This document shows, piece by piece, positions 3,055 through 34,375 of a stretch of 64,000 nt of DNA. The DNA comes from Polaromonas sp. (GTDB taxonomy: Bacteria > Pseudomonadota > Gammaproteobacteria > Burkholderiales > Burkholderiaceae_C). The notes beneath the pieces were generated by a model. That model saw only the letters and a list, made by a program, of their open reading frames with translations. It searched no databases and was not told the origin of the DNA. The position numbers were made by a program, and so were the translations under genes. The stretch's first letter is position 1, and every line of letters begins with the position of its first letter. The stretch covers positions 1-64,000 of the forward strand of contig JAQGLT010000061.1 of the NCBI GenBank assembly GCA_028292745.1, given 5' to 3'.

Positions 3055-4557
3055 TCAGCGCGGCCCTGCCTGCCCAGCAGCGACTCCCCGCAAGAATTCC
3101 GCAAGCCCGGCGTTGGCGCCAAGCCTGCCCGCCAGGGCCGCCGCCTGCATGACATCGCGCGCGGCGCCGATGCTTTCCTGAAGCTGAACGGCCTGCTTAC
3201 GCCAGCGCCTGGCGGGCCGCCGGGATAAAAGCGGGTGCACGGCTTCGATACCGTAGCGAAGCCGCTTGGCAAGGATCCGGGCCTGGTGCTGGCTTTGCGG
3301 ATCGGAAGCGCCTTTCAGGGCGCCCTCCATTTTTTGGTGCAGGCGGCCGATCCGGTGGCCGGCCCAGCGGCGCAGGGAAGTTTTCGGCGCCTCGTCGTCA
3401 AGCCCGTGCGCGTCGGGCAGCGCTTCGAGCCACTGCGTGATGGCCAGCAGCGTCAGGCCAACGGCGGGCTGTTCAAGCGCATGGCAGACCGATTTGCGGT
3501 GCAGCCCGGCAGCCTGCGTCAAGTCCCGCATCAGGGCTTGCCAGATTTCTTCCCTGTGCGGATTTCCTGCCGTGTAGGCGCCGGCGAACGGCGGCAGGGT
3601 TTCGGTGCGCGCCACATCGAGATCCCGCAGTTCGCCCACGAAGGTCAGCAGCGGCCGCAGCGGCTGCCAGTCGGGCATGGCCGGGCCCGCAAGCGCCGAC
3701 CTGAAAAGACGCCATGCGCTTTTAAAGCGCCGCCAGCCCACGCGGGCCTGGTGCACCGCCTCGGGGTCGCCGCCGGCGCGCAGCGCGTTCAGGTTGGTGG
3801 TGAAATGGCCGAACATTTCCCGCAACACCTGCTGCGCGGCAACGGCCAGGGGCATGCCGGCGGTCAGCCTGGGCGGCTGGGCGCGCAGAGGCAGGTCGAG
3901 CGTGCCCTGCAGCAAGGCATGGCCCCGCCCGGCCTTGCTGATGTTGAGCGGCAGCACGGCAATGGAGCGGGCAATCTGCGCCGCCACATCGAACAGGGCC
4001 TGCGGCTTGCCCGCGAGCAGTTCCAGCTCCAGTTCGCAGATGGCTTGCTGCCGGCCGCCGGCCACTATCTGCCCGATGTCCAGCGCCACCTCGACGATGC
4101 TGCCGCCCTGCCTGCGCACGGCCCAGCGGGTCCGCTCGAAGGCCGTCACGAAACACGGCGCCAGCGCCTGGAACAGGCGGCCATCGGCGTCGAGACCGGA
4201 CCACGGCGTGGCCTGAAGCGCCTCTGCCTGCAGTTCGCCGCCCGGCACGGGCACCTCCCATTCGCCCCGCCGGCTCAAGGCGGAGTCGCTGGCGCCGCCG
4301 ATCTTCAGCGTCTGCAGCCATTCGGGCGCCGCCTCGCCGCCCAGGCGCCGCAGCCGCAAGGCAACATGCCTGCGGTGCAGGTCCTGCCCGGGGGTGTCGT
4401 AGTAGATGTTGTGCACCTGCAGCCGGGTCGCCGGACGGCGTGCCAGTACCGCAACGCGTGTGAGCTTCTTGGCCAGGCTGGCCGGATCAGGCCCGGGCAA
4501 TGCCAGCTTGAGTTCGATTTCTTCCTGTCGCGGGGCGGCGGGGCGATGGGTTTTCAT
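3055..4557 (-). CDS. CYTH and CHAD domain protein
   Basis: N-terminal EIELKLALP (CYTH ExExK-like) and C-terminal CHAD helices with conserved His/Arg (EAVHQARVGWRRFKSAWRLF; LAKRLRYGIEAV). Confidence 0.85.
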   Translation of the reverse strand: MKTHRPAAPRQEEIELKLALPGPDPASLAKKLTRVAVLARRPATRLQVHNIYYDTPGQDLHRRHVALRLRRLGGEAAPEWLQTLKIGGASDSALSRRGEWEVPVPGGELQAEALQATPWSGLDADGRLFQALAPCFVTAFERTRWAVRRQGGSIVEVALDIGQIVAGGRQQAICELELELLAGKPQALFDVAAQIARSIAVLPLNISKAGRGHALLQGTLDLPLRAQPPRLTAGMPLAVAAQQVLREMFGHFTTNLNALRAGGDPEAVHQARVGWRRFKSAWRLFRSALAGPAMPDWQPLRPLLTFVGELRDLDVARTETLPPFAGAYTAGNPHREEIWQALMRDLTQAAGLHRKSVCHALEQPAVGLTLLAITQWLEALPDAHGLDDEAPKTSLRRWAGHRIGRLHQKMEGALKGASDPQSQHQARILAKRLRYGIEAVHPLLSRRPARRWRKQAVQLQESIGAARDVMQAAALAGRLGANAGLAEFLRGVAAGQAGPR

Positions 4558-29574: not shown

Positions 29575-30651
29575 ATGAAGCCGATCACCTACACCCGCGC
29601 CCAGCAGCTCCCCGCCCTCCTGGCAGAGCGCATCCTGATCCTCGACGGCGCGATGGGCACCATGATCCAGCGCTTCAAGCTCAATGAGGCGCAGTACCGG
29701 GGAGAAGGTTACGCCGGCCCCGGCGGGGTCGGCGAGCGCTTTAAGGACTTTCACAAGGACGTGAAGGGCAACAACGAGCTGCTGAGCCTGAGCCGCCCCG
29801 ACGTGATCCGGGACATCCACGAAGGCTACCTGGCCGCCGGCGCCGACCTGATCGAGACCAACACCTTCGGCGCCACCACCGTGGCCCAGGCCGACTACGA
29901 CATGGCCGAGCTGGCAGTGGAGATGAATTACGAATCGGCCCGCATCGCCAGGGCCGCCTGCGACAAGTTCTCCACGCCAGAAAAACCCCGCTTTGTCGTC
30001 GGCGCCCTCGGCCCCACGCCGAAAACCGCCAGCATCAGCCCCGACGTGAACGATGCCGGCGCGCGCAACACCAGCTTCGAGGAGCTGCGAAAAGCCTATT
30101 ACGCGCAGACCGAGGCGCTGGTTCAGGGCGGCAGCGACGTGCTGCTGGTCGAGACGATCTTCGACACGCTCAACGCCAAGGCGGCGCTGTTTGCCATCGA
30201 CGAGTATTTCGAGGCCAGCGGCGAGCGCCTGCCGATCATCATCAGCGGCACCGTCACCGACGCCTCGGGCCGCATCCTCTCGGGCCAGACGGTGACCGCC
30301 TTCTGGCATAGCGTGCGCCATGCCGAGCCGCTGGCCGTCGGCCTGAACTGCGCGCTCGGCGCCGCGCTGATGCGCCCCTACATCCAGGAGCTGGCCAAGG
30401 CCGCGCCCGACACCTTCATCAGCTGCTACCCGAACGCCGGCCTGCCCAACCCGATGAGCGACACCGGCTTTGACGAAACGCCCGATGTCACCTCGCGCCT
30501 GCTGCACGAGTTCGCGGCCGAGGGGCTGGTCAACATCGTCGGCGGCTGCTGCGGCACCACGCCGGCGCATATCCAGGCGATTGCCGAAGCGGTGGCGCCG
30601 ATGCACGGGCGCAGGCTGCAGCGCGGCGGTTTTTATGCCGAGGCGGCCTGA
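29575..30651 (+). CDS. metH: Methionine synthase, homocysteine-binding domain (split MetH part 1)
   Basis: [26 protein letters not shown]..., [25 protein letters not shown], zinc-ligand [14 protein letters not shown]. Confidence 0.93.
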
Positions 30652-30791: not shown

Positions 30792-31373
30792 TCATGCCGT
30801 CGGGCGTGAAGTGAGTTCCTGCTCCATCGCCTGCGTCAGCTGGGCATACATCTTGAGCTTGCCGGTGACCTCGCGCAGCCGCACCCCGATGCGCATGGAC
30901 AGCGCAAGGAGCAGCTTGGCGGCCACCAAGCAGTTTTCTTGCATCAAGAGGTCCAGCGCCTCCCGGCTGAGAATCGCGCAGCGCAGCGGCGTCGTGGCAA
31001 CGCAGGTGGCATAGCGTGCCTCGCCGTCCAGCAGGCCCAGCTCGCCGATCAGGCTGCCCGGGCCCAGCACGGTGATGGTGATGGGCGCCACCCGGCTCAC
31101 CACCAGGGTTTCAACGGTGACTTCGCCGTCCAGCAGCAGCATCATGAAACCGGTGTCCTGGTCGCCTTCGTGAATGAAGGCCGTGCCTTTGTCGATGCGT
31201 TGCGGCTGCATGTAGCGCACCACGACGCGCGCTTCCTCCAGCGTCAGCTGCATCAGGGCGGTCGGGGCGATCAGCAGCTCGGCCGCCAGGTCGGCCGCCG
31301 GGGAGCCTTGCGTCGTGCCGTGGCGCCCGCTGCCCGCCTGGGGAGGTTTCTTCCTGAAAATTGAATTGAGCAT
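30792..31373 (-). CDS. Cyclic nucleotide-binding (Crp/Fnr-like effector) domain protein without obvious HTH
   Basis: GTAFIHEGDQDTGFMMLLLDGEVTVETLV..VLGPGSLIGELGLLDGEARYATCVATTPLRCAILSREALDLLMQE. Confidence 0.85.
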   Translation of the reverse strand: MLNSIFRKKPPQAGSGRHGTTQGSPAADLAAELLIAPTALMQLTLEEARVVVRYMQPQRIDKGTAFIHEGDQDTGFMMLLLDGEVTVETLVVSRVAPITITVLGPGSLIGELGLLDGEARYATCVATTPLRCAILSREALDLLMQENCLVAAKLLLALSMRIGVRLREVTGKLKMYAQLTQAMEQELTSRPTA

Positions 31374-31439
31374 GGTTAAAAAAGCGGTAATTTGGGAGGT
31401 GCTGGCAGGCTATCGGCATTCGATGCTTAAAATTGAGCT

Positions 31440-31543
31440 TAACCCAAGGAGCGTTGCAGCGAAACATGGTTTCGTCAGGCTTGGGTAAACGGGGCCGCAG
31501 CCCCCTTTTTGCAACGACGCTCACCTTTGTTCCAAGGTGAGCC
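31440..31543 (+). ncRNA. S-adenosylhomocysteine (SAH) riboswitch-like leader of metH2
   Basis: AACCCAAGGAGCGTTGCAGCGAAAC..GTTTCGTCAGGCTTGGGTAAACGG...GCAACGACGCTCACC: P1 CCCAAG/CTTGGG, P2 CGAAAC/GTTTCG, pseudoknot partners GAGCGTTGC with GCAACG(A)CGCTC. Followed by GCTCACCTT tgttcc AAGGTGAGC, which covers the RBS of the ATG at 31544. Confidence 0.85.

Positions 31544-34375
<2,832 letters not shown>

Follow-up and report, generated by a model that had tools for sequence, protein, structure and literature searches.

A SAH riboswitch upstream of metH2 in the split methionine synthase of Polaromonas sp., with a predicted translational switch

SAH riboswitches act as ON switches in coenzyme recycling according to the title of Wang et al. 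2008 (quoted in PMC9971707), and they prefer SAH 1000-fold over SAM (PMC7367207). In the portions of Leyn et al. 2014 consulted (PMC4239095), MetH was already presented as a taxon-specific target of these riboswitches in Comamonadaceae, to which the family of the genome considered here presumably corresponds and with which it is equated for this comparison. Another class, the SAM/SAH riboswitch (RF01727), acts on translation by means of a pseudoknot close to the Shine-Dalgarno sequence (PMC7367207). Division of the MetH domains was also known, since the methionine synthase of Phaeobacter inhibens is a three-part enzyme with split MetH domains (PMC5764234).

The window analysed here is a stretch of 64,000 nucleotides from Polaromonas sp., in which metH is distributed over two genes. 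Gene metH1 (29575-30651, + strand) encodes the homocysteine S-methyltransferase half (358 aa) and displayed Pfam domain PF02574 alone. Gene metH2 (31544-34375, + strand) encodes a 943-aa protein with the folate-binding, cobalamin-binding and activation domains (PF00809, PF02607, PF02310 and PF02965), that is Pterin_bind, both B12-binding domains and Met_synt_B12. All MetH domains were accounted for across the two genes, and the split suspected from the sequence is therefore real. A gene for a cyclic-nucleotide-binding-domain protein (30792-31373, - strand; PF00027) lies between both halves; it is divergent from metH2, and homologues occupied the same place in several relatives, among them loci L214, L215, L221, L222 and L200.

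Scanning the window with cmscan matched RF01057, the SAH riboswitch, at 31440-31529 (+ strand) with 55.5 bits (E 1.6e-7) for a gathering score of 37 bits. The match covered the full model (positions 1-78 of 78), and no other gathering-level Rfam match was encountered in the window. A covariance model built from aptamers of the family attributed 80.2 bits to the site, a score that is not independent since the training set includes this site; the next-best place in the window reached 13.3 bits. A sequence-only reading had proposed this assignment from characteristic sequence blocks, all of which are present, and the Infernal search that it had recommended thus confirmed it.

According to the Rfam structure line, P1 pairs CCCAA (31443-31447) with TTGGG (31481-31485), and P2 is the hairpin CGAAAC-ATG-GTTTCG (31460-31474). 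GAGCG (31449-31453) is the 5' strand of an aptamer helix with downstream CGCTC (31518-31522), the strand shared by both states of the predicted switch. The variable linker contains an optional hairpin, GGGGC-CGCA-GCCCC (31491-31504), followed by a T run; all these parts are on the + strand. Among 40 aligned metH2 aptamers, compensatory changes on both sides were displayed by five of the seven modelled P1 pairs, and compensatory changes were also found at five of the six P2 pairs. P1 and P2 had a covariation score of 0.356, a value that none of 500 shuffles reached (0.121 when shuffled), and sliding the partners of these helices lowered pairing from 91.8% to about 31-42%. The strands of the pseudoknot, GAGCG and CGCUC, were complementary in each of the 40 aptamers, yet their sequence did not vary, and hence they contribute no covariation support. 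The aptamer sits 5' of metH2, a gene of the SAM cycle, and a second copy is found in the same genome 5' of ahcY. Judged from its sequence and from the comparison with relatives, the element is a genuine and ordinary member of RF01057, and by analogy with this known family it would bind SAH.

The aptamer is followed by a perfect 9-bp hairpin (31519-31542, + strand) composed of GCTCACCTT (31519-31527), the loop TGTTCC (31528-31533) and AAGGTGAGC (31534-31542), with the Shine-Dalgarno sequence in the 3' arm. Its computed free energy was -13.2 kcal/mol, and the unconstrained minimum-energy fold of the metH2 leader included it. The sequence-only reading had described both stem and loop accurately and had rightly located the ribosome-binding site in the 3' arm, but its spacing of 7 nt to the ATG had to be corrected: one base separates the arm from the metH2 ATG at 31544, and the Shine-Dalgarno core AAGG ends six bases before this codon. 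GCUC at 31519-31522 is complementary both to GAGC of the aptamer (31449-31452) and to GAGC at the base of the hairpin (31539-31542), and its aptamer and anti-RBS pairings are mutually exclusive. When the aptamer strands were withheld from folding, only a 5-bp remnant hairpin was left (-2.7 kcal/mol). In this predicted fold, the probability of being unpaired rose to 0.71-0.88 at 31539-31542, from about 0 otherwise, and most positions between 31539 and the AUG were unpaired, with the Shine-Dalgarno core (31536-31537) still mostly paired in the remnant.

Conservation of this stem was examined in metH2 leaders of relatives by searching the strand after CGCTC against the region preceding the start codon. 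Stems of at least seven bp were retained in 71 out of 80 non-identical leaders, with loops of greatly varying length, while the other nine displayed shorter stems at the searched register; a stem of at least six bp adjoined an in-frame start codon in 63 of the 80. With the register fixed by the SD-like motif alone, covariation was uncovered at stem positions 8 and 9, in the form of T-A/C-G and G-C/T-A exchanges, a T-A to G-C exchange being included at position 9. Pairing was observed in 67 of 77 cases at position 8 (54.1 with shuffled 3' arms) and in 58 of 77 at position 9 (34.0), with p about 0.0002, or 0.0002 and 0.0012 once the rows had been deduplicated. As the sequences share descent, the values from shuffling are indicative and not strict probabilities. 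The alternative pairing of CGCTC put forward in the sequence-only reading thus agrees with sequence, energies and the conserved stem. In a few leaders, for example those of loci L209 (G199) and L239 (G157), the 3' arm of the metH2 hairpin included the start codon (CATGAGC; ATCGATGACC) in place of a Shine-Dalgarno sequence. In these the start codon itself seems to be what is hidden, and they would represent a variant platform associated with the same aptamer.

A putative -10 box of metH2, TAAAAT, was located about 7 nt 5' of the aptamer (31428-31433, + strand). A TANNNT box was present between -24 and -12 from the GGAGCG anchor in all 80 metH2 leaders, against 0-5 of 80 in equally wide background windows taken further upstream; the exact TAAAAT was found in 59 of the 80 leaders and in none of the background windows. 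A consensus promoter scan, which also demands a good -35 box, made no call at 31428-31433, and the predicted promoter is supported by this conservation and not by a consensus score. Given a -10-like box in all 80 leaders, metH2 probably forms a transcription unit by itself.

Scanning with Rfam detected at least one SAH riboswitch in 196 of the 201 genomes of the family: 162 displayed two or more, 34 displayed one and five displayed none. These counts are slight underestimates, as the element of locus L169 was missed at the genome-wide threshold; this riboswitch (3290-3420, - strand) precedes metH2, has an unusually long P2 and linker and obtained 23.9 bits with model R1. The SAH riboswitch loci read in the family were situated 5' of ahcY or metH2. 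With the family model, each of 63 riboswitch-bearing metH2 loci harbored exactly one element, before metH2, and none was found before metH1 in the 30 of these loci that included a complete metH1 and at least 150 nt upstream of it. Likewise, neither the Rfam scan nor the family-aptamer model uncovered a SAH element 5' of metH1 in the window, so the earlier attribution of the element to metH2 and not metH1 held both here and in the loci of relatives. Third SAH matches in genomes G157 and G174 (38-39 bits) were located before neither metH nor ahcY and were taken as chance, as was a match of 22 bits inside the metH2 coding sequence of locus L163. A plasmid search found nothing.

Outside the family, other families of the order mostly displayed metH as a single gene of about 1250 aa, with the SAH element elsewhere. 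A split metH devoid of a SAH element was found in 19 of 20 loci read from genomes of the family with one SAH riboswitch, the remaining locus being L169 with its variant of 23.9 bits, and also in families f32, f17 and f39. A fused full-length metH preceded by a SAH riboswitch was encountered in L189 (G369, family f21; 2259-2326, + strand; 44.4 bits with model R1), apparently as an independent association. A joint origin of the riboswitch and the metH split was rejected as a strict link, given these exceptions in both directions, and each of the two can occur without the other. Tandem SAH riboswitches, with two matches on the same strand within about 120-200 nt, were present in four further families of the order; such matches were located at G270:C93, G299:C45, G306:C1, G308:C32, G349:C31 and G384:C151.

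The second SAH riboswitch of the Polaromonas genome, 5' of ahcY, displayed 60.1 bits. Leaders of ahcY (L001 and others) usually kept a CTCACC...GGTGAG hairpin, situated tens of nt 5' of the start codon of ahcY; in many of them a second segment, TGCGGGTT, which is complementary to ACCCGCA, lay closer to this codon. The switch at ahcY is probably more elaborate than that at metH2.

The reading held here, with high confidence, is that of an RF01057 leader with its own promoter and a Shine-Dalgarno-hiding hairpin, operating as a SAH ON switch of metH2 translation; binding of the ligand, the ON direction and the translational level of control are attributed by analogy with the known family. The riboswitch would form the 5' leader of metH2, transcribed from the promoter situated about 7 nt 5' of the aptamer. 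At low SAH, GCUCACCUU (31519-31527) would pair with AAGGUGAGC (31534-31542) and mask the Shine-Dalgarno sequence, resulting in low translation. Accumulating SAH would stabilise the aptamer, in which CGCUC (31518-31522) pairs with GAGCG (31449-31453), leaving the weak 5-bp remnant hairpin alone, so that the ribosome could start. As the aptamer and anti-RBS strands are shared and their pairings exclusive, the start site is expected to become accessible on binding of SAH. SAH would thereby raise the B12/folate half of methionine synthase together with ahcY, and homocysteine released from SAH would be remethylated to methionine.

Low-scoring SAH-like sequences do exist in these genomes (19.3 and 18.9 bits, besides the matches of 38-39 bits mentioned above), and a GC-rich leader might happen to fit the SAH consensus. 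For the present element such a chance likeness has a negligible probability, given an E value of 1.6e-7 over the full model length and retention of the element at this position by most of the family, and it was ruled out by this conservation together with the compensatory changes in the helices. A SAH riboswitch acting on transcription, with polymerase halted by the linker hairpin and its T run (31491-31510) or at another step, is also improbable, if less remote than a fortuitous match. The linker indeed contains a terminator-like match (31491-31504), but four such sites were found in the region for about 2.2 expected by chance. The linker moreover ranged from 11 to 54 nt in relatives, many of which had neither hairpin nor T run, and the linker terminator was rejected on account of this poor conservation; the feature that relatives do conserve is the hairpin hiding the Shine-Dalgarno sequence.

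What this translational switch implies for the balance of both halves is less certain. We lean slightly towards a situation in which, in most of the family, a dedicated promoter and the riboswitch let SAH turn on the folate/B12/activation half alone, the homocysteine half being outside SAH control, and SAH would then set the ratio of the halves. The halves could instead be effectively co-regulated, metH1 being reached indirectly by a shared regulator or by read-through, in which case one-sided SAH control would matter little. This we regard as rather unlikely, even though only about 110-240 nt separate metH1 from metH2 in some relatives, transcription may read through from metH1 into metH2, and a post-translational balance would be invisible in the sequence. 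The metH1 and metH2 genes of the window are separated by an opposite-strand gene; in 32 of the 63 riboswitch loci, metH1 was absent from the available upstream sequence, which extended to about 5.3 kb at most and was short in a few loci; and all leaders had the -10 box 5' of the aptamer. All three points argue against co-regulation. A split methionine synthase with one regulated half offers a natural case for asking why that subunit was chosen.

Compared with described RF01057 riboswitches, the element displayed the same full aptamer, a SAM-cycle gene downstream and an ahcY copy in the genome; its sole departure was the linker from P1 to the 3' pseudoknot strand, 14 nt longer than in the consensus. 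It shares with the SAM/SAH riboswitch (RF01727) translational control involving a pseudoknot, predicted in the present case. RF01727, which was not matched in the window by the Rfam scan, differs in its fold, in its location before metK in Rhodobacterales and in turning translation OFF. As in Phaeobacter inhibens, MetH domains are on separate genes, but the enzyme of that species is split three ways and lacks PF02965, whereas the present one is in two parts with the activation domain in MetH2. Control of MetH by a SAH riboswitch is not new, having been published in 2014 for Comamonadaceae, and the arrangement is common to most of the family. In its portions consulted, the main text of Leyn et al. 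2014 (PMC4239095) contained no statement on the half of a split metH that is regulated, nor on an RBS hairpin. More generally, the placement before one half only across most of the family, the conserved putative promoter proper to metH2 and the SD-hiding hairpin were not found stated in the examined parts of the literature. These three features add detail to an already described system: in most genomes of the family, SAH sensing is located at ahcY and at a single half of the split methionine synthase, and the element of the window provides a clean and testable example, predicted to be translational, of a known riboswitch class.
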